A stretch of DNA of 64,000 nt, taken from positions 1 through 64,000 of the forward strand of contig NZ_VWOX01000015.1 in the NCBI RefSeq assembly GCF_008629675.1, in the 5' to 3' direction. The position numbers were made by a program, and so were the translations under genes. Below are positions 5,900 to 58,365 of the stretch, piece after piece. Source of the stretch: Roseiconus nitratireducens. Lineage in GTDB: Bacteria > Planctomycetota > Planctomycetia > Pirellulales > Pirellulaceae. Position 1 is the first letter of the stretch; the number at the start of each line of letters is the position of its first letter. The notes below the pieces were generated by a model. That model saw only the letters and a program-made list of their open reading frames with translations, searched no databases and was not told where the DNA came from.

Positions 5900-8779
5900 T
5901 CAGGCCAATCCTATGGACCGACCAAAATCATCGCCCATCGATCGCCCCGTATCAGCCTGTCGATGACGTCCGACCGGCTCGGACGCATCTCTTGTAGCCG
6001 CCTCGCGATTCCACCAATGCAATACGCGATCACGAAACGATCGCACCAGATGCTGACCGTGCCGCAGATAGCCTTGATCCTCGTGAGATTTGTTTTGTTC
6101 AGACCGTTCGGCTCCGGATCGCACCAACTCCGTCGCTGACAACTGCTCCCCGGACTTCTGGATCGCCCGCCGCATACGAGCCTTGTCATCGACAAACAGC
6201 GTCACGTCTTCGCTGCCTCGCGAGACCGTGACGTAGAATTGCTTTGCATTGACCGCCGGCAACGATTCGGAGCTCATCGCCGCCAATGCGACTTGACGAT
6301 CCTTTCCTTGGCTCGCATGGCTCGTCACGACGTAGCCGAGATCCAGATGGCCATAGTCCTTGTCGATCACCGTGCCACGCTCCAACACGATGTTGCCTAA
6401 TCGGTCAAATCCCTTCACCGCATCGAGCCGGCCGTTGCTAATGCGTTTCTTGCCGTCGATCGCCTTTCCACCGAGGCTAAACCGGACTTTGTCCCCGGCC
6501 GACAACTGCAATGCCTGTTCCGTGTAGACTTCGAAACGATCCGCAGCATCTAGTGGAAGCGACTTTTTCTGACCTCCGACGATCGAGATGACTTCGACTT
6601 CGTTTCCTACTGCCCCCGCGACGCGGTAGCGTTCGCTTTTTTTGAAACCACCTTTTGCGTTTTGGTGAAACTGGATGACCGCCCCTTCCTGGTCGGAGTA
6701 ATTCGCCGCTTCACGCTTTTGTGCTTCGGACAGGTTGAGCGACTTGAGCTGCACGATCGGATGCTCTTCAGCGGACAGCGATCCCATTTCCCTGAGCGAT
6801 GATCGGATTCGATCCGTCACGGATTTTGCTTCCGCGTGGGTCGGTGCCACCACAAGCGTGGAATTCCCGTTCTTTGCGTGAGAGAGATAGGTATCGGCCA
6901 GGATGGCTTCACGATCGCCGTCGCCGATCTCCCTAACTTTGCCCATCGCATCGAGCCGATCGAAACCTTCCAGCAAACCCGTCTTCCCCGATTCCTGGAC
7001 TTCATGGCCCTTGCTGATCATTTCGACGGCATCCCTGTACAATCCTCGCTGTCGCTGAATAGCGTCGACGCGGGCAATGTTCAATCCCGCTTCCTGCTCA
7101 AGCAATCGCATCGCTTCCCCGCGACGCGGCGAAGCATGCTGGCGTGTGTCACCAGAAAGGACCACGCGTGCATTCTGCGACTTGGCGATGCCAAAGACCG
7201 CATTCATCGAGCGGACGTCGAGCAGCCCTGCCTCATCGATCCAGATCACCTGACCGTCAAGTTGTGGGTGCAAGCGATCGTTTCGTATCAAGTGCTCCAC
7301 GGTTTCCGTCTGGCCAAATCCCTTCTCCCTCAGCACTTCGACCGCGCCGGTGCTCGGAGCAAACGTAAACAGCTCCTTGCCGGACTTTTTGATCGCCTCG
7401 GCAGCTTCCTGCATGAGTGACGATTTTCCGGTACCCGCCCCGCCGGTGACTGCCATGACCGTGTCTCGGCATTCTAGAACGAAGTTCACGGCGGCCTTCT
7501 GCTCGGCGTTGAGCCAATCACGGGAACACTCATAGTGATCCTCACCGATCGATTTTCGAGTACCACGACCTTCGCGTGCGAAGTCGATCATCCGTTTTTC
7601 GGCTGCCAGGACTTCGCGTGTCGTGATCAGATGCCTCTGCGTTCCATCAGCATTTATCGATCGCTCAATCACCTCGGTCGCGCTAAGGGCTTTCTCGATG
7701 CGTTCCGGTGTCATCGTCAGCCCATGCTCCAGGGCGGTCGCAACGACCTGGTGACGCTCCACCGTCGATTCACGATACAGGTGATGATCCAGGGCATATT
7801 TGACGGAGGCGGCGGCATCCTCGCGACCCGCATCTTCGGACCGCTCTCGACTTTCCAGCTTCTTAAACGCTTCACTCTCCTCGGGCGACAGGCGTGACCT
7901 CCATTCCTCACGCAGCGTTTCAACTGAAGTGCCTTTGTCCTTCTTCTCACGGGTCTTCTGACCGAGCTTCGCCTTTTCGGAAGCCGCCGAGACTCCGTTC
8001 TTGAGTGCGTACTCTTCGACCTGTTCGGTGCGTCGGCTGAATTTCTCGATCGTTTTGCGATCGACGCCATCGATCTCCCAACCGGCTTTGATCCTGCCGG
8101 ACTGCAAGTAGCGGGTATGCTTCACGTCATAACCGAGTTCATTTTTCAGCTTGTTGGCCAGCCTAGCCTCGAACTTCGCCTGCAGACTCGGACGCTGTCG
8201 CACGATTTCTTCAAATTCGCCAGCGTAGTGCTTTCCGTTGTGTTCGGTCCAATTGATGACAAACGCATGAACGTGCAAATGGGGATCCGGCTTGCCATCG
8301 ACCGGCCGCGACGTCTTGTGGAGAAAGTCGGCGTAGACCAGTTTTCCCGTTGCCGTTTTCTGTTTCGAGTTCGCGTTTTCTCCGTTTCTGACCCGTCGCT
8401 GCATGAGCGGTTCGACATCTCGGCTCATTGTTTCGTGGACGGCATCGCAAAGTGCCTGCGAAATCCTATCGTCATGGTTGATGGCCCAGGCGAGCGAGAC
8501 GCTTTTCGGCACCGAAAAGGTCAAGTCCATCCCGGGCCGGCGGTCCTTCCGGTCCCGCTGCGTCAGTCTTTCGCCGGTAAGTGGATGATTGCCTTGAAGA
8601 AGATCATTGAACTGCTGTTTCGTAACATCGCTTCCATGCCCCAGGCCAAGCAGTTCGGCACCCTGACCTCGCCATTGACCGCTGACTTCCTGACCGAGGT
8701 AGTAGTCGCCCTGGGTCAGAACCTGTTCAAAGTATTGCTGCGTCCCTGAGACGCTTTTTCCCTGTGTCGCGATGAGCAT
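5900..8779 (-). CDS. MobF-family conjugative relaxase-helicase (TrwC/TraI-like)
   Basis: The 959 residues comprise an N-terminal relaxase domain and a C-terminal RecD-like helicase. The relaxase has candidate nucleophilic tyrosines at 16, 26 and 27 and the metal-binding triad HLHVH at 167-171 in PDPHLHVHAFVINWT. The helicase has Walker A GGAGTGKS (446-453), Walker B VIWIDEAG (511-518), and near the C-terminus the VTSHASQGKDRQ and FYVTVSRG helicase motifs. This is the complete MobF layout. The protein should nick oriT, stay covalently linked to the strand and unwind it during transfer. The start ATG at 8779 has no obvious Shine-Dalgarno sequence. No coupling protein or type IV secretion gene is in the window. 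The expected oriT was not located; the 8845 palindrome and the 5297-5450 cluster are candidates for nearby control or transfer sites. Confidence 0.93.
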   Translation of the reverse strand: MLIATQGKSVSGTQQYFEQVLTQGDYYLGQEVSGQWRGQGAELLGLGHGSDVTKQQFNDLLQGNHPLTGERLTQRDRKDRRPGMDLTFSVPKSVSLAWAINHDDRISQALCDAVHETMSRDVEPLMQRRVRNGENANSKQKTATGKLVYADFLHKTSRPVDGKPDPHLHVHAFVINWTEHNGKHYAGEFEEIVRQRPSLQAKFEARLANKLKNELGYDVKHTRYLQSGRIKAGWEIDGVDRKTIEKFSRRTEQVEEYALKNGVSAASEKAKLGQKTREKKDKGTSVETLREEWRSRLSPEESEAFKKLESRERSEDAGREDAAASVKYALDHHLYRESTVERHQVVATALEHGLTMTPERIEKALSATEVIERSINADGTQRHLITTREVLAAEKRMIDFAREGRGTRKSIGEDHYECSRDWLNAEQKAAVNFVLECRDTVMAVTGGAGTGKSSLMQEAAEAIKKSGKELFTFAPSTGAVEVLREKGFGQTETVEHLIRNDRLHPQLDGQVIWIDEAGLLDVRSMNAVFGIAKSQNARVVLSGDTRQHASPRRGEAMRLLEQEAGLNIARVDAIQRQRGLYRDAVEMISKGHEVQESGKTGLLEGFDRLDAMGKVREIGDGDREAILADTYLSHAKNGNSTLVVAPTHAEAKSVTDRIRSSLREMGSLSAEEHPIVQLKSLNLSEAQKREAANYSDQEGAVIQFHQNAKGGFKKSERYRVAGAVGNEVEVISIVGGQKKSLPLDAADRFEVYTEQALQLSAGDKVRFSLGGKAIDGKKRISNGRLDAVKGFDRLGNIVLERGTVIDKDYGHLDLGYVVTSHASQGKDRQVALAAMSSESLPAVNAKQFYVTVSRGSEDVTLFVDDKARMRRAIQKSGEQLSATELVRSGAERSEQNKSHEDQGYLRHGQHLVRSFRDRVLHWWNREAATRDASEPVGRHRQADTGRSMGDDFGRSIGLA

Positions 8780-8844
8780 ACTGAACCATATAAACGACCC
8801 AGAGAAGAAGCAAACGGAGGGTCAGATTTTAGATAGGCTTGTCT

Positions 8845-8861
8845 CCTATGCACTGCATAGG
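8845..8861. promoter_or_regulatory. 17-bp palindrome upstream of the relaxase gene
   Basis: CCTATGCACTGCATAGG has perfect 8-base arms around one base and lies 66-82 bp upstream of the relaxase start. A TAGGCTTG to the left and CAAG to the right give partial further symmetry. Position and symmetry suit an operator controlling relaxase expression or part of oriT. This is inferred only from sequence. Confidence 0.5.
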
Positions 8862-8951
8862 CAAGTTCAGTGAGCCAGATTCGCGCCGGTCAATCAACGA
8901 GCCAAACGCGACATTCGAAATCCATCCACAACCGATGGTTCAACCGCAGCA

Positions 8952-11417
8952 TCACGTAGACGGATTGGTAATCGCTATCGCCTGCTCAATTGGCGTATAA
9001 AGATCGACATCTGTTCGTTCGGTTTCAATCGAGACTACCATCGAGTACTTTGCGATTCGATTTGTTTGGCCGAGATGCTTTCTTTCGCGCCACCAGCCAG
9101 TGACAGGGTAGACAGCAATCACTCCGGAGGCTGCGAGATCAGCAGCGATTCCAGACCAGACATCACAATGAATTGATCCCTTGCAGCGAAGTTGCCGGCC
9201 CCACCGCCAGTCTCGATCGTCCGATTCGGAAGGATACTCTTCATCGTTGTCACTTGCTGCTGTGATCCGCCTGAGGAACTCAGCGTCGTTGTCGGTTGGT
9301 CTTTTGACGTCAAATCGAAGTCCATGCGACTGATATCGATGTTTGCGTTTCCATCCAACGCGTCCGGGGCTTGGTTCAACGAAATACGATAGGGTAATCC
9401 TCATCGCCACCTGAGTATCTCCAAGCGAAAGCAGAACATCTTTCGGCCAAGGAAGATGATGGAGATGCATATCCTTGGTCGCATCCGTCTTATCCTCCCT
9501 AATCTGGAATGGTTGCAGTTGAGACTCAATCACCATGGTGGCCGCATTGAGAGTGCTAGCCGATGCTTTGGCAAAATTCGGTGCCCCCCACCCGAAACAA
9601 CGAAGTATTGCTTCACGGTTTCCTTCACATGTCATTCGGAGCATTTCGGGACTATGACGTGCCGAATGGACGGTGAGTGCCCGAATTGTCTCGGGTCTCA
9701 AATTTGGATACCTGGACCACAGACGTGCCATGAAACGGGCTGCCATTGCGGTAGCCCCGCTTGTATCACCTGTTGTGGTGAACAACGCACCGTCTGGGCT
9801 GATCCTGGTGGTAAGAAGTGACAAATCGTCCACGAAGTCGACATCGCCCGATTCTGGGTGCCTAGCCATATTGCCAGCTTCGAAGACAACATCCGGCTTC
9901 ACCGGCCATGATTTGTCATCCCAACTGACGGAGGTTCGACTTGCAGGCGATAAGCCGCCTGGCCTAGCAAGCGGTTGCCAGCCTGCAATGTCATCGGTGA
10001 TGATCGAGTGAAGATCGGTCATGCCGCCAATAGTCAGTGCGTTCCAGCTCTGTCCAGGATCTTCTATTCCGGACACTAGATTTCGATCGGGATATTGCGA
10101 ACGACCCGCAAGCGGAAGATTGCCAGCTGAAGCTACAATCAAGCGTCTTGAGTCATCACCGTGGAAGCTACCATCGTCATCGTAGAAAACGCCAGCCGCT
10201 AGTTGGTCAATTGACGCGGACCACGATGATGGAAATCCTTCGTCTCGCGCCGACGCGGCGAGAGTTAAGCAATAGACCCTTTGAATTTGATCTGGATTTG
10301 CAATCTCAATTCGCGAGACGGCTTGGGCTGTCAATGCTCCCCAAAGTTCTTCTTCCGTTGAGTAGGAGTGTCGGAACATTTTGACCGATTCCAAATTGTG
10401 CTCCAGAGTGAGAATTCCAGAATGTTTGAGAATGCTCGTTAGACAACCGTACAAAGCAATGCCTGCCATCTCGGTGCCATGGCCGTGACGGTCTGCAGAA
10501 TTCCATGATGGGTCGACTGAAATCGTGTTCGATTCAGCGAGTGCGTCGCGTAGCAATGGATGGGATCGATTCACACCAGTGTCGAGGTGGCATACCGTTG
10601 GTGCTGACGGGGTCGCGAACTCGATTTGTGATAGAGCGTCATCGACGATGTCGGCTTGATCGCTTGGGGGCAAAGCAAGCACCTCCCCAGCAAGCAGTTT
10701 TCCTAAGCGCAGCTCAGCCAAAACATCGAAGAGATTCTTGATGCTAGAAAGCTGACGAAAGGAAGCACGCACAAGTACGACACATCGCTCCGGAAATCGG
10801 ATTTCAGCATCGGCTACGACGACTCCAGATTGACTTGCGCGTTGGCGAAAATCCGATACGACATCTTCTGGCCCAGTCTGCGAAAGCCAAATCTCCCACC
10901 AAAGCTCGCTTTCCAAATCCGTTGGGAGAACACCGGCGTCATTCCAGAAAGTTTCAAGCGTTGCAATCCGGATACGACTAATGCTTTCGATGAGGGCTTG
11001 GTTCTTAGGGCTTCCCGATTTGGTATTCTGCGTCGCGTATTTTTCTAGTCGGCCAATGAAGTGTGTAAGTTTGCCATCGGGAACAAACACAGCCGCTCTC
11101 ATTCTTTTGTCATTGTCGACTTTCACCGCCCGAATTTCTATTCCACTTGGCCGGTAGTCCAGGCTTTCCAGTTTCAGCGGGAAATCTGGTTCACTCAGGA
11201 ATTCAATTACGCGTCCTTTCGGCTTCTGGTCGTCGGGGAGCGCGAGCACCGCCTCCTCGGCTTTTACTACCTCTCCGATATCATCAGCCAGTTGTGTCGC
11301 ATGTGGTCTGCGATCACGAGGTGGGGTAGGGAAAGTTCCAAACCGAGGCTTGTACGGGAATTTATAGTCTTCCCTTTGAGCCGTCCCCCGAGGGAACAGG
11401 TGCGGTAGGTCTGCCAT
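8952..11417 (-). CDS. ietS: IetS-like subtilisin-family (S8) serine protease
   Basis: An 821-residue protein with the complete S8 catalytic triad: Asp279 in CHLDTGVNRSHP, His313 in GHGTEMAG and Ser553 in TGDTSGATAMAA. The oxyanion Asn433 lies in VASAGN. A long N-terminal region (1-270) and a C-terminal beta-rich region flank the protease. There is no signal peptide, so it is cytoplasmic. It lies 30 bp downstream of an AAA ATPase gene on the same strand. That pair and architecture match IetA/IetS, described from an Agrobacterium Ti plasmid as an incompatibility and toxin-antitoxin-like module and later scored as an anti-phage system. The protease is expected to be the harmful effector, held in check or activated by the ATPase. 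Base composition is more AT-rich than the chromosomal part of the window. Confidence 0.85.
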   Translation of the reverse strand: MADLPHLFPRGTAQREDYKFPYKPRFGTFPTPPRDRRPHATQLADDIGEVVKAEEAVLALPDDQKPKGRVIEFLSEPDFPLKLESLDYRPSGIEIRAVKVDNDKRMRAAVFVPDGKLTHFIGRLEKYATQNTKSGSPKNQALIESISRIRIATLETFWNDAGVLPTDLESELWWEIWLSQTGPEDVVSDFRQRASQSGVVVADAEIRFPERCVVLVRASFRQLSSIKNLFDVLAELRLGKLLAGEVLALPPSDQADIVDDALSQIEFATPSAPTVCHLDTGVNRSHPLLRDALAESNTISVDPSWNSADRHGHGTEMAGIALYGCLTSILKHSGILTLEHNLESVKMFRHSYSTEEELWGALTAQAVSRIEIANPDQIQRVYCLTLAASARDEGFPSSWSASIDQLAAGVFYDDDGSFHGDDSRRLIVASAGNLPLAGRSQYPDRNLVSGIEDPGQSWNALTIGGMTDLHSIITDDIAGWQPLARPGGLSPASRTSVSWDDKSWPVKPDVVFEAGNMARHPESGDVDFVDDLSLLTTRISPDGALFTTTGDTSGATAMAARFMARLWSRYPNLRPETIRALTVHSARHSPEMLRMTCEGNREAILRCFGWGAPNFAKASASTLNAATMVIESQLQPFQIREDKTDATKDMHLHHLPWPKDVLLSLGDTQVAMRITLSYFVEPSPGRVGWKRKHRYQSHGLRFDVKRPTDNDAEFLRRITAASDNDEEYPSESDDRDWRWGRQLRCKGSIHCDVWSGIAADLAASGVIAVYPVTGWWRERKHLGQTNRIAKYSMVVSIETERTDVDLYTPIEQAIAITNPST

Positions 11418-50262: not shown

Positions 50263-50807
50263 TTTACGCGTTGGTAGAAAAGGCCATTGAAAGTTCGATT
50301 GACGAAGCATTCAGCGTGCTGGATCCCGTGGACACGTTTGGTCAAACCATCCGGCTGGGCGATCGGTTGACCGGGCGATCGATCCTGAGGCCGGTGTTGG
50401 TTGAGAGACGCCTGACACGCGAGTCCCTGTCTGAACGTTGGCAAAACCCGGCAGCTGCGGTGGCGTTGGCGGCGGAAAGCCATGCTCTGGCGAGCGCCGC
50501 GACTGTTCCGACCGGTTCCCGTCGCGAGCGATGGATCCGCCGGAATTTGCAGGCCCGTCGTGAAACCGCCAGACAACGCAGCCCGATTGGAACGATTTTT
50601 CCGCCATGAGGGTGGTTTTAACCGCTTCAAGTGATCAATCTGCTCGGCGAAGGGCGGCGGAAACGACGCCCGTGACGGAATCCGCCTGCGAATTCACAAA
50701 CACGGGATTCGGTCAGGTACCATCGAGAATTGATTCCGTTTCTGATACAGACGGCGCGGGAAACCGCTCGTCGTCACTCCCTCTTCTTCTGCAAGTGTTC
50801 CGTGCAA
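50263..50807. other. Intergenic region with dispersed repeat
   Basis: A plus-strand frame at 50202-50609 has no motif and includes the dispersed repeat in translation, so I do not call it. The promoter of the DUF1549-DUF1501-sigma operon should lie here, upstream of 50808. Confidence 0.5.
50472..50495 (+). repeat. Dispersed GCTCTGGCGAGC repeat, copy 3
   Basis: GCGGAAAGCCATGCTCTGGC then GAGC. Same core as the copies at 34181 and 37310. Confidence 0.55.
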
Positions 50808-52496
50808 ATGGTTCGCCAAATGCTAACGATTCAACTCCTCGCCACGCGCCGGATCGCCCCCCTGGCGGCACTGTTGTGGCTCGCCCTCGGCATTGGCGAC
50901 GTTGCCAGATCCGAGCCGGTCATGCCGCCTCAGATCCGGATGATCGATGACGCGATTGAGCAGGGTTGGCATGACTACGAAATCAGCCCGGCCCCGGAAG
51001 CCGACGATGCCATTTGGTGTCGCCGTGTCTTCCTGGACGTGATCGGCCGCATCCCCACCCTGGATGAGTTGGAAACGTTTCTGGCGGATCGCGATAACGA
51101 CCGTCGGGCGAAGCTGGTCGACCGTTTGCTGCACGACGACCGATACACCGAAGAATACGCCAACCACTGGGCAACCGTTTGGGCAAACCTGTTGATCGGG
51201 CGTAGCGGCGGGATGGACCGACGCGACCTGACCGATCGCGACGGCATGATGAAATACCTGCGCGACGCGTTCGCGGAGAATCGCCCCTACGACCGGATGG
51301 TGTATGAGTTGGTCACCGCCGAAGGATCGACCAAGCCGGGCACCCCGGGCTTCAACGGCGCAGTCAACTTTTTGGTCGGCAAAGTCAACGACGACAAAGC
51401 GGTCCTGGCGGCAAGCAGCGTGTCGCGAATCTTTCTGGGCCAGCAAGTCCAATGCACGCAGTGCCACAACCACCCGTTCAACGACTGGAAACAACAGAAG
51501 TTTTGGGAATTCAATTCCTTCTTCCGTCAAACGCGCTCCCTGCGACGTTTCGTTGACGGAACTCGCGACATCAGCCACGCCGAATTGGTGAACGAAGATT
51601 ACGCGGGCGAAGCGGGTGACCCCAACGACGCGTTGGTGTTCTACGAAATGAGAAACGGGCTGACGCGAGTGGCGTATCCCGTCTTCACCGACGGAACGGA
51701 AATCTCGCGAAGCGGGTACGTCGACGAAGTCAATCGCCGAAACGAGTTGGGGCGTTTGATGCTGGACAGTCCGCAACTGGATCGCATGGCGGTCAACCGA
51801 TATTGGTCGATGTTCCTGGGTTACGGATTTACCAAACCGCTCGACGACATGGGGCCTCACAACCTGCCCACGCACCCGCAACTGCTGGACAGCCTGGCGT
51901 CCTCGTTCCGCGGTTCCAGCTATGACCTGAAGGAACTGATTTTCTGGATCACCCTCAGTCGGCCTTACTCGTTGGCTTCGGTGATGACCAGCCAGAACGA
52001 GATCGACGACCCGTCGATCGGGGAGACTCCCAAGTTCTCGCGGTTTTACTTGCGTCAAATGAGTGCCGAACAGTTGTATCAATCATTGGTTTCGGCGTCC
52101 GGTGCGTCGGCCCAGGGCACGTACGAGCAACAAGAACAAAAGCGTCGGGAATGGTTGCGGCAGTTCGTGGTCACGTTCGGAACCGACGAGGGCGACGAAG
52201 CAACCACCTTTGACGGATCGATTCCGCAGGCGTTGATGCTGTTCAACGGCGAATTGACTCAGCGGGCGATCAGTTTGAAGCCGGGCAGCTTCCTGGATCG
52301 GCTTTCGCAATCAGGAAAGTCGACGCGGGAACGATTGACGCGACTGTACCTGGCCGGCTTGGCCCGGCAGCCCAGCAAACGCGAAGTTGGTCTGGCGGGA
52401 GAACTGTATCGTGCCCGAAAAGGAAACGAAAAAGAGATGTTGCAGGACATGTGGTGGGCCATCCTCAACAGCAACGAATTCATCATGCAGCACTGA
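50808..52496 (+). CDS. Secreted DUF1549/DUF1553 protein with CXXCH heme motif
   Basis: 562 residues from ATG 50808; an upstream in-frame ATG at 50730 and a downstream one at 50820 are alternatives. The signal peptide is IAPLAALLWLALGIGDVARS. The DUF1549 part has RRVFLDVIGRIPTLDELETF, and the CXXCH motif is at residues 216-220 in QVQCTQCHNHPFNDWKQQKF. The DUF1553 part follows (VNRYWSMFLGYGFTKPLDDM, LYLAGLARQPSKREVGLAGE). These proteins are a planctomycete hallmark and are assumed to be cytochrome-like partners of DUF1501 proteins. It is first in a run of four tightly packed plus-strand genes. Confidence 0.9.
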   Translation: MVRQMLTIQLLATRRIAPLAALLWLALGIGDVARSEPVMPPQIRMIDDAIEQGWHDYEISPAPEADDAIWCRRVFLDVIGRIPTLDELETFLADRDNDRRAKLVDRLLHDDRYTEEYANHWATVWANLLIGRSGGMDRRDLTDRDGMMKYLRDAFAENRPYDRMVYELVTAEGSTKPGTPGFNGAVNFLVGKVNDDKAVLAASSVSRIFLGQQVQCTQCHNHPFNDWKQQKFWEFNSFFRQTRSLRRFVDGTRDISHAELVNEDYAGEAGDPNDALVFYEMRNGLTRVAYPVFTDGTEISRSGYVDEVNRRNELGRLMLDSPQLDRMAVNRYWSMFLGYGFTKPLDDMGPHNLPTHPQLLDSLASSFRGSSYDLKELIFWITLSRPYSLASVMTSQNEIDDPSIGETPKFSRFYLRQMSAEQLYQSLVSASGASAQGTYEQQEQKRREWLRQFVVTFGTDEGDEATTFDGSIPQALMLFNGELTQRAISLKPGSFLDRLSQSGKSTRERLTRLYLAGLARQPSKREVGLAGELYRARKGNEKEMLQDMWWAILNSNEFIMQH

Positions 52497-52602: not shown

Positions 52603-53877
52603 ATGATTTCAACTTGGAAAACGCCTCGCGGGATGACGCGGCGGCACTTCATGAATCACCTGGTCGGTTCATCCGCTGCCGTCTCGGCCGCGATGACGCT
52701 CGGTGGCGCGATCCAAGCCAATGCCGAAGAAATGCGCCGCAACCGAAAGTCGGCGATCATGCTGTGGATGGGTGGTGGACCGCCGACCATTGACCTTTGG
52801 GATTTGAAACCGGGAGCGCCGACGGGCGGCCCCTTCCGACCGATTTCCACCACGGGCGACATGCAAATCTGCGAGCACCTGCCGAAGGTCGCGGAGCAGA
52901 TGCAGCACCTGTCGGTCGTGCGGAGCATGTCCACGCGGGAAGCCGATCACGACCGCGGACGCTATTACATGCACACGGGATTTGTCCCGAACCCGAATAT
53001 CGAACACCCGAGCTACGGCGCGGTGATCGCCCACGAATTGATCGGACAACGGCCCGAACTGGAGATTCCTCCGTTCGTCACCATCGGCGGTGCCAGTGAA
53101 GGACCCGGTTTCCTGGGCATGGCTTGGTCACCGTTCGCGGTCACCAGCAGCGGGCGAATCCGCAACTTGAACATGCAGCTGGACGATGCACGACTGATGC
53201 AGCGGATGGCCGCCCTGCGGGAGATCGAGTCCGGGTTCGCCAAGCGCACGCGAGGGCTGCCGGCGGAGGAACACGGCAAGGTCCTGAAGAAAACCTTTGA
53301 CCTGATGACCAGCTCGCAAATGGAAGCGTTTCGGGTCGAGACCGAAGACGAAAAGACCAAGGAACGTTACGGCACCAACGGATTCGGGCAGGGTTGCCTG
53401 CTCGCGCGACGCCTGGTCGAAGCCGGCGTTCCGTTCATCGAAGTCGATTTGGGTGGTTGGGATTTGCACCAGAACGTCCACCAAACGCTTGCCGACACCA
53501 AGCTGCCGCAACTGGACCAGGCGATGAGCGCCCTGGTCGAAGACCTGCAGCAGCGGGGATTGTTGCAGGACACCGCCGTGATCTGGATGGGCGAGTTTGG
53601 TCGGACACCGCGGATCAACCAAAACGCCGGCCGCGACCACTGGGCTCGCGCCTGGTCCTGCGTGGTCGGCGGGGCCGGTATCAAAGGCGGCTTGGCCGTC
53701 GGAGAAACCAGCAGCGACGGCACCGCAGTCGAATCGGAGCCCTTCAGCAGCGAGGACCTGATGGCGACGGTCTGCAAAGGCCTGGGGATCTCCACGGAGA
53801 CCACGTTCATGAGCAAGAACCGACGACCGATGAAGATTGCAAACGGTGGAAAACTGATAGAAGAACTTTTGGCTTGA
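52603..53877 (+). CDS. Tat-exported DUF1501 protein
   Basis: 424 residues. The Tat signal is at residues 12-17 (TRRHFM), followed by AAVSAAMTLGGAIQANA. The family core contains MLWMGGGPPTIDLWDLKPGA, the VRSMSTREADHDRGRYYMHT segment and the sulfatase-fold-like end DTAVIWMGEFGRTPRINQNA and GRDHWARAWSCVVGGAG. DUF1501 proteins belong to the alkaline-phosphatase-like superfamily and pair with DUF1549 proteins. It starts 106 bp after the DUF1549 gene; the sigma factor gene starts at or just before its stop. Confidence 0.92.
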   Translation: MISTWKTPRGMTRRHFMNHLVGSSAAVSAAMTLGGAIQANAEEMRRNRKSAIMLWMGGGPPTIDLWDLKPGAPTGGPFRPISTTGDMQICEHLPKVAEQMQHLSVVRSMSTREADHDRGRYYMHTGFVPNPNIEHPSYGAVIAHELIGQRPELEIPPFVTIGGASEGPGFLGMAWSPFAVTSSGRIRNLNMQLDDARLMQRMAALREIESGFAKRTRGLPAEEHGKVLKKTFDLMTSSQMEAFRVETEDEKTKERYGTNGFGQGCLLARRLVEAGVPFIEVDLGGWDLHQNVHQTLADTKLPQLDQAMSALVEDLQQRGLLQDTAVIWMGEFGRTPRINQNAGRDHWARAWSCVVGGAGIKGGLAVGETSSDGTAVESEPFSSEDLMATVCKGLGISTETTFMSKNRRPMKIANGGKLIEELLA

Positions 53878-53879
53878 GT

Positions 53880-54578
53880 TTGGTAGACAAAATCGGCGAT
53901 CGATCGCCAAGCTCGGCCGGGCCGGACGACGGTCCGCAGCCCCGGTCACCTCATCGCAACGACGCTTCGTCACCAGCCGGTGACGAGCCCGCTGGCGATC
54001 GGCCTGAGAAGAATCAAACGGACCGGCAGCGGTGCGAGACGCAGGCCAAGGACTGCCAAGCGGAAGCGCGCGACGCGGAAGGACTGGTGCTTCGCCATCA
54101 ACGTGGCGTTTGGCGTTACTTGCGGATGCTCGGCTGTGACGATGCCACCGCCGACGACCTGACGCAGGAGACGTTCTTGCGCGTGTTGCGGCGAGACGAT
54201 TTCGTTCAACACAACGACAGCGCGACGGCCGGGTACCTCCGCCGCACCGCGTACAACTTGCTGGTTTCCCGCCACCGAAAACTGGGCCGAATCCAGACCA
54301 TCGCCGAACCAACCCTGCTGGATGAAACTTGGGACCGCTGGGCCGGCAAAGACCTGACCGGCGACGCCGCGGTCGAAGCCCTCCGGCAATGCTTTAGCAA
54401 ACTGACCGAGCGGGCGCAACTGGCGCTTCGAATGCGATTTGATTCGAATGCCAGCCGCGTCGAAATCGGTGAAGCCTTGGGGATCACCGACCACGGAGCT
54501 CGCAACCTGATGCAACGCGCCAAGCAACAGCTTCGCAGTTGCGTCGACGAAAAGATGCAGATCGCAAACGAATCATGA
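53880..54578 (+). CDS. ECF-type RNA polymerase sigma factor
   Basis: About 232 residues. Region 2 lies near GLVLRHQRGVWRYLRMLGCD and ADDLTQETFLRVLRRDDF. Region 4 has FSKLTERAQLALRMRF and IGEALGITDHGARNLMQRAK. The N-terminal 65 residues are low-complexity. Start is uncertain: TTG at 53880 or 53874 (overlapping the DUF1501 stop), or GTG at 54087 with AAGGA nearby. The stop overlaps the next gene's start by four bases (ATGA). It is regulated, most likely, by the membrane protein encoded next. Confidence 0.83.
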   Translation: MVDKIGDRSPSSAGPDDGPQPRSPHRNDASSPAGDEPAGDRPEKNQTDRQRCETQAKDCQAEARDAEGLVLRHQRGVWRYLRMLGCDDATADDLTQETFLRVLRRDDFVQHNDSATAGYLRRTAYNLLVSRHRKLGRIQTIAEPTLLDETWDRWAGKDLTGDAAVEALRQCFSKLTERAQLALRMRFDSNASRVEIGEALGITDHGARNLMQRAKQQLRSCVDEKMQIANES

Positions 54579-56617
54579 CTAGCTTCCCGAAACGCGAAAC
54601 GTCCAACCAACCCGGCGATGCCGATCCGATGATCGATGCTTTGTTGGCCGAATTCCTGCCGAGTGATCCCAACCAGCGGAGACCACCGCCCGATCTCTCC
54701 CGGCAAATCATGACGCAGTTGGAGGCGATTTCAGAATCCCATCGCACCGCCTCCACGCGGTCGGCTTCGGCGGGCAAGTCGACCCGCACGTCGGCCCCGC
54801 GTCCCGCTCCGGCAGAGAAGCCCGCGCCCGCATCGATTTCGGCCGGTTCGCGTCCGGCGGTCGCGCGCATTGCGACGCTGATTGTGTCGATTGCCGCCTG
54901 CCTTGCGGTGGCGGTTTGGCTGGCGGGCAATGATTCCGCAACACCTTCGGACGATTCCGAGCCGCTTTTGGCCGGTGGTCCCTCCGATCCAGCTGTCGCA
55001 CCGCAGCCAGAGCCCGAGATCCCGACCAACGATTTGATCGCCGATTCCGGAGAAGTCGGAGCCGACGAAGAACCGGCCCCGGAACAGCCCCGCAAGCGGA
55101 TCAAGGGAATTCCCCTGAATGATCCGAACGTGGCCGTGTCGCCCCAGCGTAGCGGGCTGGATCTGATCGCAGTCGATCCGAACGATCATCCGAACATGCT
55201 TGAACTGGTGCCGTTGGACGCATCGGTCGCCCGGCTGCAAGCGGCGACGAATCGCTACTGGACGACGTTGGGCATTGAACCGACCGCGGAAGCTCCGCCC
55301 AGCCAGGTGGCTGAGCGAATCTCCGACCGGCTCGGTGTGTCCCTCAGCGAAGACCGGCTGAACGACCCCACACACATCCAATCGCAACTGGCGAAGTCGG
55401 ATCAAGCGGCCGAAATCGCCAAACGCTGGCTTGCCACCGTCACCGAGACTCCGCTGACCGTCTTTGAAGGGGAGCAGTACGGTGGTCTGGTCGGCGAGGT
55501 TGCCGAAGGGTTTTCCGGAAGCGAAACCCTGCAGACCAAACTTGTTTCGCTGATCGACGGTTCGAATCCCCATTCGAACGATTGGTATCGAGCGGTGGGT
55601 CGGGGCGGTCCAGAACGGATTGCCCGGCGATTGGCCCGCGTCTCGATGAACGCCGACATGCGATGCGTGCGGTGCCACGATTCGATGATCGGGCGAGCCG
55701 GAACGCAGGACGATTATTGGTCGTTTGTCGCGTTGGTCCGAAATTCGATCGAGCGCGGTGAGAACGGATGGACGGTCAAAGACGAACCGAGCCAAGCGTC
55801 GACCTTTTTTGAGTTGCCGGACGGCCGTCAAAGAATGGCACACGCCGGCGTCAGCGAACGTTTTCTGCCGGGACCTTCGGCCGGCCAAACCGACCTGAAG
55901 TCCTGGGCAGCCGCTTTGGGCAACAGCGACCAATTGGCCGACAGCATCGTCGATTCGCTTTGGGAACTGGTGCATGGGCGACCTTTGAGCCCGAATCCGG
56001 TGGACGCGTTTGCTCCACCAATGAATGCAAGCTTGCAGGAACTGCACGACCAATTGTCCGACGACCTGCGGGCAAGTCGTTTCGACGTGACTCGCACGCT
56101 GGCTTTGATTCTTTCATCGCCGACCGTGCGTCGCACGGTTCCCGAGGCGCTGCTCGCGGAGAACTTGCTGACCACGACGGACCAACAAAGGGCCGAGGCA
56201 TTGGAGCGTGTCAACGCGTTCGCCGCCGCCGTCGACACACCGGACTCGTCGCGCCGTCAGCGAATCGAATTGGCGCTGCGTCGCACCGGTGGCAAGCTCC
56301 AGGACGACGGGACGGGATCGCTTTTGGCGCAGCCCATGTTGAAGGATTCCGCCAGCGGAACTCCGGGATCACTGTCCTCGGATGCGGCCCCCAGTTTTCA
56401 ACAACTGTTGAGCACCGATTTCCCGGGCAACGACGCCGAGTTGCCTGTTTCGTGGCTGCGATCGATCAACGATTACGATGATCAGGTGCAGCACCTGGTG
56501 TATCTCAGCGGTGGCGAGAAAGTGACCGATGACATCGCATCGATCGCCAAGCAACTCAGAGAATCCGGATCACGAGAATCGGCACTCAGCCGGCTGTGGT
56601 GGATCTTGCGAAAGTAG
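54575..56617 (+). CDS. Membrane anti-sigma-like protein with DUF1549-like CXXCH domain
   Basis: 680 residues. The cytoplasmic head (1-95) has the MIDALLAEFLPSDPNQRRPP pattern and a Ser/Ala/Pro linker. A single membrane segment lies at 97-117 (VARIATLIVSIAACLAVAVW). The external part shows DUF1549/DUF1553-like features, including VSMNADMRCVRCHDSMIG with CXXCH at residues 364-368 and downstream LALILSSPTVRRTVPEALLA. Its start overlaps the sigma factor stop, so it is the probable anti-sigma factor. Inference: the external domain binds heme or responds to redox and controls the sigma factor. No classical zinc-binding anti-sigma motif (HxxxCxxC) is seen. Confidence 0.8.
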   Translation: MTSFPKRETSNQPGDADPMIDALLAEFLPSDPNQRRPPPDLSRQIMTQLEAISESHRTASTRSASAGKSTRTSAPRPAPAEKPAPASISAGSRPAVARIATLIVSIAACLAVAVWLAGNDSATPSDDSEPLLAGGPSDPAVAPQPEPEIPTNDLIADSGEVGADEEPAPEQPRKRIKGIPLNDPNVAVSPQRSGLDLIAVDPNDHPNMLELVPLDASVARLQAATNRYWTTLGIEPTAEAPPSQVAERISDRLGVSLSEDRLNDPTHIQSQLAKSDQAAEIAKRWLATVTETPLTVFEGEQYGGLVGEVAEGFSGSETLQTKLVSLIDGSNPHSNDWYRAVGRGGPERIARRLARVSMNADMRCVRCHDSMIGRAGTQDDYWSFVALVRNSIERGENGWTVKDEPSQASTFFELPDGRQRMAHAGVSERFLPGPSAGQTDLKSWAAALGNSDQLADSIVDSLWELVHGRPLSPNPVDAFAPPMNASLQELHDQLSDDLRASRFDVTRTLALILSSPTVRRTVPEALLAENLLTTTDQQRAEALERVNAFAAAVDTPDSSRRQRIELALRRTGGKLQDDGTGSLLAQPMLKDSASGTPGSLSSDAAPSFQQLLSTDFPGNDAELPVSWLRSINDYDDQVQHLVYLSGGEKVTDDIASIAKQLRESGSRESALSRLWWILRK

Positions 56618-56695: not shown

Positions 56696-57274
56696 TCACG
56701 CCCCCCGCGCTCCCGCCACTTCGGAAGCCTTGTAAACGACGGTCGAACGTTTGAAGCCCAAACGTTCATACAACCGGATTGCCCCCGTGTTCTCGGTGGT
56801 CACTTCCAAATGCATCTGCCGCAGGCCGGCCTGGCGGAAGCCGGCAGCGGCGTGGGCCAGTAAAATCGACCCCAAGCCGCGGCCCCGATGTTCGGGGGCG
56901 ATGCCCAAGTTCTGGATCGCTCCCCATCCCTCCTGGGCCAGCCCCTGAATGGTGCCCACGGCCAACGAAAAACGTTCTCCGGTTTGCGGGTGCACGGCGA
57001 GATAGCGGATCAGCCACGTGGCCTCCGGCACGAAGTCTTTCCGCGAGGTGATCTCTCGCATCAGACGCAAGCAGCCTTCGCGACGCGACAGGCAGGGAAA
57101 CACGTCGGCGTCCAATTCCTCGCGAAAACTGTGGTACTTGGCGGTCGCGTGCTCGTGAAGCAAACCGGGCTGATAGGGCACCAATTCGTATCCTGCCGGA
57201 GGTGCGTTTGCGCCACCGGACCAGGTGCGGAGATCGAACTCCATCCGGTACCGTTTGAAGTAGGTCATGCCCAT
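56696..57274 (-). CDS. GNAT-family N-acetyltransferase
   Basis: 192 residues. The acetyl-CoA-binding motif A is around IQNLGIAPEHRGRGLGSILL (about residues 128-147), with the following LRQMHLEVTTENTGAIRLYE and RLGFKRSTVVYKASE strand-helix ending. This is a typical GNAT fold; the N-terminal half is more variable. Substrate unknown. Starts at 57274 or 57268. It converges with the anti-sigma-like gene. Confidence 0.88.
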   Translation of the reverse strand: MGMTYFKRYRMEFDLRTWSGGANAPPAGYELVPYQPGLLHEHATAKYHSFREELDADVFPCLSRREGCLRLMREITSRKDFVPEATWLIRYLAVHPQTGERFSLAVGTIQGLAQEGWGAIQNLGIAPEHRGRGLGSILLAHAAAGFRQAGLRQMHLEVTTENTGAIRLYERLGFKRSTVVYKASEVAGARGA

Positions 57275-57384: not shown

Positions 57385-58365
57385 ATGACCGATTCTTCGT
57401 TTCCCACGTTTGCCAGCCTGGTCGATCAGGCTGTGGTCGTGACCGGCCCGACGGCGTCGGGAAAAAGTGCCCTGGCGATCGAACTGGCAGAGCGGATCGA
57501 CGGGGAAATCCTGTCACTGGATTCGATCGCGGTCTACCGCGGCATGGACATCGGCACCGCAAAACCGACCCCGGAGCAGCGTGGACGCGTGCCGCACCAC
57601 CTGCTGGATCTGGCGTCCCCCGACCAGGATTTCAGCGTCGCGTGCTACCTGCAGGCGGCGCACCGTTGCGTCCAGGAGGTGCTGCGGCGTGGGCGCCGAC
57701 CGATCTTTGCTGGTGGGACGCCGATGTACCTGAAGGCAATCCTGCGTGGATTTGATCCCGGGCCTCCGCCCGACTGGGAATTCCGGAAGTCGGTCGAACG
57801 CGACCTGGAAGTCCACGGGGTCGACGCACTGCGCGAAAGACTTTCACGGGTCGATCCGTTATCCGCCCATCGGATCGCTCCCGGAGACACCCGTCGGATG
57901 ATCCGCGCTTTGGAGGTCGCCAAGCACACGGGGGTACCGCTGAGCCACCGCCAAATCCAATTCGATCAATCGCGTCCGGCGGACTCCTGCAGTGTGTTTG
58001 CGCTTCGTTGGCCTCGTCCCACCCTGCACCAAAGAATCAACCAGCGGGTCGACCACATGTTTGAAGCTGGCTTGATCGACGAAGTCAAAGGGTTGCTGGA
58101 AGACTATGGCCAGCTTTCCAGGACGGCATGCCAGGCGGTCGGCTACCGCGAAGTTTTGCAATGGTTGTCATCGGAGTCGTCAGACCAGGACGAGCTGAAA
58201 GAATTGGTGGCGGCTCACACACGCCAACTGGCACGGCGGCAGGAAACCTGGTTTCGGTCATTCAGTGAAGTGACACCGATCGACATGAACTCTGACAACG
58301 GCGTGATCGGCCGGCCGACGCTTCAGTCACTGGTCGACCGAGTGATCGGACACCTGCAAGCCTAA
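57385..58365 (+). CDS. miaA: tRNA dimethylallyltransferase MiaA
   Basis: 326 residues. P-loop GPTASGKSALAIELAER (21-37), LSLDSIAVYRGMDIGTAKPT, the FAGGTPMYLKAILRG segment, and the end GYREVLQW and RRQETWFRSF. It transfers a dimethylallyl group to A37 of tRNAs reading UNN codons. The TCGA-type reading is standard. Its 3' end overlaps the YpdA-like gene by four bases, convergently. Confidence 0.95.
   Translation: MTDSSFPTFASLVDQAVVVTGPTASGKSALAIELAERIDGEILSLDSIAVYRGMDIGTAKPTPEQRGRVPHHLLDLASPDQDFSVACYLQAAHRCVQEVLRRGRRPIFAGGTPMYLKAILRGFDPGPPPDWEFRKSVERDLEVHGVDALRERLSRVDPLSAHRIAPGDTRRMIRALEVAKHTGVPLSHRQIQFDQSRPADSCSVFALRWPRPTLHQRINQRVDHMFEAGLIDEVKGLLEDYGQLSRTACQAVGYREVLQWLSSESSDQDELKELVAAHTRQLARRQETWFRSFSEVTPIDMNSDNGVIGRPTLQSLVDRVIGHLQA

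Follow-up and report, generated by a model that had tools for sequence, protein, structure and literature searches.

A putative anti-sigma factor of Roseiconus nitratireducens with a diverged, CXXCH-retaining DUF1549-DUF1553 ectodomain as its candidate sensor

We analysed a stretch of 64,000 nucleotides from the planctomycete Roseiconus nitratireducens (assembly GCF_008629675.1, contig NZ_VWOX01000015.1, positions 1 to 64,000 of the forward strand), hereinafter designated the window. It contains an operon of four genes on one strand, which follow a motif like the promoters of extracytoplasmic function (ECF) sigma factors in the order DUF1549/DUF1553 protein, DUF1501 protein, ECF sigma factor and a membrane protein, hereinafter designated the window protein (Table 1). 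The window protein is probably a membrane-bound anti-sigma factor that controls the secreted protein of the operon and has a diverged paralogue of it as its sensor, and it would act through heme c, release of the sigma factor and autoregulation. As judged from sequence comparisons, this reading is backed by the operon itself, its synteny, a promoter-like motif conserved in the genus, the homology of the ectodomain, the retention of CXXCH and the linkage of the cytoplasmic head to sigma genes; binding of the sigma factor, attachment of heme, the nature of the signal and autoregulation are what we infer.

In the mechanism that we favour, a cytoplasmic head of two helices, joined by PPDL, would hold the ECF sigma factor encoded just upstream. 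The periplasmic domain would be a repurposed, diverged copy of the cytochrome-like DUF1549-DUF1553 protein of the same operon, which is the presumed effector and the presumed paralogue of the sensor domain. The CXXCH motif would carry heme c, attached by the System II machinery of the genome. A cue at the ectodomain (redox state, heme occupancy or a ligand shared with the effector) would lead to release of the sigma factor, and the freed sigma factor would switch on its own operon, namely the effector, its DUF1501 partner, the sigma factor and the anti-sigma factor.

A sequence-only reading of this DNA had described the gene as that of an anti-sigma-like membrane protein with a DUF1549-type CXXCH motif in its external domain. 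The coordinates of the gene, its 680-residue open reading frame, the overlap of its start with the sigma stop in ATGA (54575-54578) and CVRCH at residues 364-368 are all as that reading had them. The membrane segment, placed there at residues 97-117, is found at 99-117 by hydropathy, inside a helix of the AlphaFold2 model, and the CTQCH protein encoded from 50808, taken there for a secreted DUF1549 protein, is indeed a DUF1549 protein by Pfam, with a signal peptide recognised by eye. The N terminus of the window protein is predicted to lie inside. Specifically, the 15 residues flanking the membrane span carry a net charge of +2 on the N side and −4 on the C side, and the N side is the more positive in 55 of 57 rows, some genomes being present twice.

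Orthologues of the window protein keep the same genetic context. A search of 197 related genomes gave a match at E ≤ 1e-5 in 123; among those listed, most of the weaker matches span the middle part of the protein and resemble other DUF1549 proteins. From the relatives 35 regions were retrieved, and one (L068) was dropped as a non-orthologue, so that 34 loci with an orthologue remain. All but one of them (33 of 34) have the sigma gene immediately upstream, the exception (L042) being cut by a contig end, and genes for DUF1549 and DUF1501 proteins lie upstream of the sigma gene in 32. At L054, the sigma and anti-sigma genes stand without these two genes, and the same contig carries, at another place, a free-type DUF1549-DUF1501 pair. 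Among 24 loci of named organisms (Stieleria, Rhodopirellula, Rubripirellula and others, many of them the same genomes), the sigma gene adjoins in 23 and the full gene set is present in 21; in one of these the DUF1549 gene is partial. The loci that fall short are cut by contig ends, except L091.

The motif is kept as strictly as the context. C364, C367 and H368 are invariant in every one of the 34 aligned members (the window protein with 33 orthologues), whose identity to the window protein goes down to about 20%, and all 23 named-organism proteins have CXXCH, the split gene of Rhodopirellula baltica (L073) being excluded from this count. At L073, from strain BR-MGV, the anti-sigma gene (7869-10141 of the locus) is split over two overlapping frames of 388 and 479 residues, the second of which also has CVRCH; this may reflect either a pseudogene or a sequencing error. 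L045 and L073 (R. baltica, gene in two frames) were excluded from the alignments.

By profile comparison, the ectodomain is a full-length, strongly diverged homologue of the DUF1549-DUF1553 protein encoded three genes upstream, because the two families match each other in hhalign and because single members of the anti-sigma family match DUF1549. Specifically, a profile of 27 anti-sigma family members aligned with a profile of 20 partner-family members at 99.8% (E 5.6e-28) over residues 218-680. The CXXCH motifs coincide in this alignment, the motif of the anti-sigma family sitting at the DUF1549 family position that is occupied by CTQCH in the partner. When the 27 members were scanned singly with Pfam, DUF1549 was matched at E ≤ 0.01 in 26 (best 5.9e-17) and DUF1553 in nine. 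The partner-family proteins are 60-82% identical to the DUF1549-DUF1553 protein of the window in the family alignment, and the closest other relative of that protein within its own genome is 34% identical. The profile similarity that had been proposed as a check is confirmed at the level of the family, and not for the window protein alone, which stays under the Pfam cut-offs. The sequence-only reading had also named three findings that would speak against it, namely no similarity to DUF1549, no conservation of CXXCH and no adjacent sigma gene in orthologues; none of these was found.

In the AlphaFold2 model, large parts of the ectodomain (about 218-680) are well modelled, and the linker after the membrane span is of low confidence. 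The predicted local distance difference test score (pLDDT) is below 50 at residues 365-374, 550-563 and 565-606. A model of the free partner, with a mean pLDDT of 56.5, was left unused. Sequence searches of the PDB gave nothing credible, the best match (E 0.0029) being to designed proteins.

Of the residues that its family conserves, the ectodomain keeps a minority, CXXCH among them. Our alignment comprised 26 sensors, 36 free partners and, from other lineages, 34 DUF1549 proteins that are fused to the same kind of head, with eight near-duplicate loci omitted, and we took as test columns the 118 that are at least 95% conserved in the partners and in 12 slower fused proteins. Sensors retain a mean of 25% (median 10%) of these columns, and the 22 faster fused proteins retain 67%. 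Only seven of the 118 columns are kept in all 26 sensors, namely W229, C364, C367, H368, Q378, W463 and W676; random retention of seven columns would include C, C and H with odds of about 1 in 7,600, if columns are assumed to be independent. C, C and H of the motif are also present in every one of the faster fused proteins. The other three family-conserved His columns are retained in sensors at 15%, 0% and 0%.

The presence of CXXCH alone is no proof of a sensory heme, because it is a general feature of DUF1549; the selective retention seen in the alignment is the better argument for one. The genome has ResB and Cytochrom_C_asm domains over the cut-off, each in an open frame of 1224 residues, about 1.4 kb apart. 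As would be expected of a c-type cytochrome, a CXXCH motif lies on the predicted exported side and maturation domains are present in the genome. Heme c is our preferred sensing element, since CXXCH has survived the divergence and the genome has maturation domains of the System II type. It is rather likely that the ectodomain carries covalent heme, and we give a similar, better than even chance to a signal that depends on CXXCH. A further residue, His640, is His in all 26 sensor rows, in 23 of the 32 fused rows that have a letter there (34 in total) and in two of the 36 free partners, and is a reasonable, though speculative, candidate for the second heme ligand.

The head is linked to sigma genes also where the rest of the protein is different. 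A head profile of 34 columns was built from 18 head peptides, with the motif LLxE...PPDLSxxIL. In the AlphaFold2 model, the head forms helices at residues 18-27 and 42-57, with low confidence. Within its own genome, the window protein is the sole strong match of the profile (E 3.1e-13), the next being at E 0.24. Matches at E ≤ 0.01 were found in 67 of 117 relatives, giving 48 further loci beyond the orthologues, all of which were examined. In 45 of the 48, a same-strand sigma gene precedes the head and ends no more than about 1 kb before it, and the three heads without one are the weakest matches (E 0.004-0.005), one of them in a protein that is DnaK-like by eye. Chance linkage of this kind should be rare, because the genome has 57 matches to sigma region 2 in 8.2 Mb. 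The 45 sigma-linked loci comprise 36 DUF1549 ectodomains with CXXCH, three at contig ends (L108, L196 and L197) and six other ectodomains, of which five (L125, L130, L134, L136 and L139) are VWA-type by Pfam and L203 is the sixth.

Heads occur at a wider range as well. Among 294 genomes drawn from the phylum, 27 have head matches at E ≤ 1e-4, including the window genome and one relative. At ten phylum-level loci (L210, L211 and L213-L220), which are the best-scoring ten of 52 new places and of which six come from one family, a sigma gene lies upstream within about 1 kb in every case (E 1e-33 to 2e-52), and the ectodomains are FecR (two), leucine-rich repeat, LRR (two), EF-hand (one) and without label (five). 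Tandem heads of two or three copies are present in ten of the 34 aligned members (L036-L044 and L046), a count that ignores second matches inside the ectodomains of L064 and L065; such tandem heads might bind several sigma molecules or increase affinity. The NCBIfam model NF052375, named anti-sigma factor, matches four of eight other head proteins weakly and far under its cut-off.

By these profile searches, the head is a sigma-linked module that further lineages of the phylum share, and it may represent a modular family of anti-sigma factors for which Pfam has no model. That it binds the sigma factor is highly probable. The broader proposal, a family of transmembrane anti-sigma factors that would sense via covalent heme c in a domain derived from the cytochrome-like effector under their control, and would be built on an undescribed, sensor-swappable and sometimes tandem two-helix module of several lineages of the phylum, is more tentative and falls somewhat short of an even chance. 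The sequence-only reading, which saw an anti-sigma factor with a cytochrome-like sensor, gains strength from the sigma linkage of the head in other lineages and from an ectodomain that has shed most family-conserved residues and kept CXXCH. What holds of it is the sigma-linked membrane protein, the DUF1549/DUF1553-type ectodomain, the conserved CXXCH and the sigma gene next to the orthologues, and its redox or heme signalling stays at the level of a proposal.

Upstream of the first gene, AGGTACC-N15-CGTT is present in 12 of the 13 same-genus loci that have upstream DNA, the window counted, and L047 is without it. Exact copies number three in the genome, and those of a reversed-pattern control number four; the motif alone is not rarer than chance, and the conserved feature is its location. 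The three exact matches lie at the operon itself, antisense inside the sigma gene, and among other open reading frames of contig C25, and among them no regulon beyond the operon was found. For a looser motif, GGTAC-N16-CGTT, both strands of 33 loci (684,516 bp) were searched, and 18 of the 23 matches lie at most 300 bp upstream of the first gene. These 18 belong to the 12 same-genus loci and to L048, L051, L052, L055, L056 and L058. In 40 head loci (L101-L140), the strict motif occurs once, at L127, about 500 bp upstream of the sigma frame. A scan with the sigma-70 consensus gave no promoter. As a sequence pattern, the motif fits an autoregulated ECF operon.

Several observations weigh against the mechanism that we favour. 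Taken alone, the window protein misses the cut-offs of Pfam DUF1549 (PF07583; E 9.3e-4, 19.6 bits, cut-off 29.8) and DUF1553 (PF07587; E 0.013, 15.4 bits, cut-off 28.5), and by that criterion we file its ectodomain as a diverged DUF1549 homologue and not as a member. The low-confidence residues 365-374 of the AlphaFold2 model overlap CXXCH, which might be what a cofactor site modelled without its cofactor would give. With the CXXCH region poorly modelled, a Foldseek search of the PDB with the AlphaFold2 model returned no match under E 0.001. The free, fused and sensor forms have no other conserved His, Cys or Met column in common that could provide a shared second ligand. The looser promoter motif is missing in 14 of the 20 loci outside the genus that bear the first gene. 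In Pfam scans of the window protein and other head proteins, no model covers the head, and the head needs no heme, since six of the 48 head loci bear ectodomains without CXXCH. Finally, the genome has 59 DUF1549 matches, and all 34 paralogues that were checked have CXXCH, which as a feature of the family could be a structural or a metal site.

The universal CXXCH of these paralogues also suits another sensor, a decoy whose ectodomain mimics the secreted DUF1549 protein and senses the substrate or partner of that protein, with CXXCH, heme-bearing or not, merely stabilising the fold. A sensor that is a paralogue of the effector of its own operon is what such a decoy would look like, and W229, Q378, W463 and W676 are retained as strictly as CXXCH. 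Mimicry is, however, a poor fit to an ectodomain in which most effector-conserved residues, and so probably the ligand site, are gone, and we regard a decoy as unlikely, if worth keeping in mind. Much less probable is that the window protein has no anti-sigma role and is an effector relative, tethered to the membrane, whose gene happens to lie in a sigma operon, its head recruiting something else. Pfam recognises no known anti-sigma domain in the head, and NCBIfam recognises none in the window protein, which NF052375 does not match; but the head alone predicts a sigma neighbour with any ectodomain (45 of 48 and 10 of 10 loci), the predicted topology is N-in, ATGA couples the gene to the sigma gene, and members with two or three tandem heads exist. 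Least likely of all is that the ectodomain is a decaying copy of the effector with a residual CXXCH and no sensing role: the sensor clade does evolve fast, with long branches, but C, C and H are three of only seven fully kept columns, the motif is present in every aligned member, and His640 is invariant in sensors and not in free partners.

Sensors, fused proteins and free partners cluster together against other DUF1549 paralogues of the genome, with Shimodaira-Hasegawa-like approximate likelihood-ratio test (SH-aLRT) support of 98 in a first tree with 14 paralogues and of 99 in a second with seven. The first tree omits 20 of the 34 paralogues and the eight near-duplicate loci, and the second omits 27 of the 34 paralogues; VWA-type and truncated head proteins are excluded from both. 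In the second tree, partner and sensor rows were thinned, eight rows were dropped (six of them long in the first tree) and 19 of 20 free-copy loci were used, L178 being dropped as just under 50%. The exact placement of the fast-evolving sensor clade is unsure.

A scenario of ancestral fusion, in which a head-fused DUF1549 protein came first and the free effector split off later, was suggested by the first tree and then abandoned. Free DUF1549 copies of at least 53% identity are present in 34 of 40 genomes, other families included (three of the 34 as fragments only, two at contig ends), and a single clade of free copies and partners is not rejected (p-AU 0.858, approximately unbiased test) and has the higher likelihood. 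Of the six remaining genomes, G149 and G133 have the fused form alone at that level of identity, G022 and G056 have a match of 37-39%, and G062 and G020 have no match. Free DUF1549 copies adjoin a DUF1501 gene in 16 of 20 loci, and the fused gene is followed by a DUF1501 gene in eight of 40 (L103, L107, L118, L124 and L126-L129). The DUF1549 gene upstream at L118 was considered as a partner and rejected, as it groups with the paralogues in the tree. What we retain from the trees is that the free and fused lineages form one group, apart from the remaining paralogues.

A second operon of the same genome (L204, contig C24:31500-37500, 609-5694 of the locus) consists of a sigma gene, a gene for a membrane DUF1549/DUF1553 protein of 868 residues and a gene that is DUF1501-like by eye. 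Its membrane protein matches DUF1549 at 2.3e-43 and DUF1553 at 1.3e-47 and contains CAQCH, and its head barely matches the profile. This suggests repeated origins, or repeated re-heading, of the architecture.

The features of the operon are collected in Table 1. The sigma factor scores 76.3 bits against TIGR02989, under the cut-off of 124.55. The operon is followed by an acetyltransferase-like gene (56696-57274, minus strand) and a miaA-like gene (57385-58365, plus strand), both labelled by eye, and this placement is kept in L035-L041.

Table 1. Features of the operon, in positions of the window
Feature	Position	Strand	Evidence
Putative ECF-type promoter AGGTACC-N15-CGTT	50715..50740	+	position kept in same-genus loci
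Secreted DUF1549 (PSCyt2)-DUF1553 (PSD1) protein with CTQCH	50808..52496	+	Pfam DUF1549 1e-49, DUF1553 3.3e-28
DUF1501 protein	52603..53877	+	Pfam 6.1e-108; Tat-like N terminus by eye
ECF sigma factor, 232 residues, TTG start inferred	53880..54578	+	Sigma70 region 2 4e-10, region 4 7.6e-7
Putative anti-sigma factor, 680 residues	54575..56617	+	head of two helices, single membrane span and diverged DUF1549-DUF1553 ectodomain
Cytoplasmic head, residues 15-51, motif DPxIDALLAE...PPDLSxxI	54617..54727	+	head profile E 3.1e-13
Transmembrane segment, residues 99-117, N terminus inside (predicted)	54869..54925	+	hydropathy 2.55; helix 94-118 (AlphaFold2)
Putative periplasmic DUF1549-DUF1553-like sensor domain, residues 218-680	55226..56614	+	hhalign against partner family
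CVRCH, residues 364-368, putative heme c attachment site	55664..55678	+	C364, C367 and H368 invariant
His640, speculative distal heme ligand	56492..56494	+	invariant in sensors

Sensors that are kin to what they regulate occur elsewhere. BlaR1 senses with a beta-lactamase-like domain, and in BlaR1/MecR1 and the clostridial RsgI-type anti-sigma factors the sensor domain is related to the regulated enzyme class. The likeness to the protein described here lies in this kinship of sensor and effector; the families, the ligands and, for BlaR1, the output are different. CnrX, the sensor partner of the anti-sigma factor CnrY, is a separate and different protein. CnrY itself has two helices, one for each sigma domain, according to PMC7406223, and the head described here is also predicted as two short helices, a likeness by description only.

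According to He et al. 2017 (PMC5615132), PSCyt domains are combined with PSD and carbohydrate-binding domains and have an unknown function, and PSCyt2 genes usually adjoin a family of unknown genes. The ectodomain described here is homologous over its full length to the PSCyt2-PSD1 proteins of Planctomycetes and Verrucomicrobia and keeps CXXCH, but it is diverged, scores under the Pfam cut-offs and is anchored in the membrane behind a sigma-linked head. According to PMC2754498, the ECF sigma factor RB10049 of Rhodopirellula baltica SH1 was up under all three stresses tested, and it has been proposed as the regulator of RB10051, which has PSD1 and PSC2 domains (Studholme 2004, as cited there); PMC2754498 also gives 41 copies in R. 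baltica for each of these two domains. As in the operon described here, an ECF sigma gene is tied to a DUF1549-DUF1553 gene; the proposal, as cited there, comprises a sigma factor and a target but no anti-sigma sensor. The identity of the operon with RB10049-RB10051 was considered and rejected by length and pI on the contig of strain BR-MGV, where the operon sigma factor has a pI of 6.5-6.9 at each of eight starts tried, none of which gives 217 residues; RB10049 is listed with 217 residues and an isoelectric point of 10.1.

Planctomycetes also have ECF operons in which PSCyt genes accompany a FecR/LamG membrane protein; there, unlike in the operon described here, the membrane regulator is a protein distinct from the DUF1549 one. 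In the genome of the window, L205-L208 are further ECF operons in which a separate membrane protein is followed by DUF1549 and DUF1501-like genes, at L208 with a sulfatase-like gene in between (by eye). At L206-L208, the sigma, membrane protein, DUF1549 and DUF1501-like genes stand together; the membrane protein of L206 matches FecR and Laminin_G over the cut-off, and that of L207 matches Laminin_G over the cut-off and FecR at 22.1 bits, under the cut-off of 24. Among the literature matches listed, none names a DUF1549 anti-sigma sensor, this architecture or the head, and an earlier mention is possible.

Planctomycetes have greatly expanded sets of DUF1549/DUF1553 and DUF1501 proteins, to which the literature reached assigns no function. 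A sensor and its effector in one operon, if the reading is true, would give a direct handle on what these proteins respond to, and coupling a heme c domain to an anti-sigma factor would be an unusual means of sensing the periplasmic redox state. The head, which stands before DUF1549, VWA, FecR, LRR and EF-hand ectodomains and has no Pfam match, is a testable candidate anti-sigma module and could serve to annotate orphan sigma factors.

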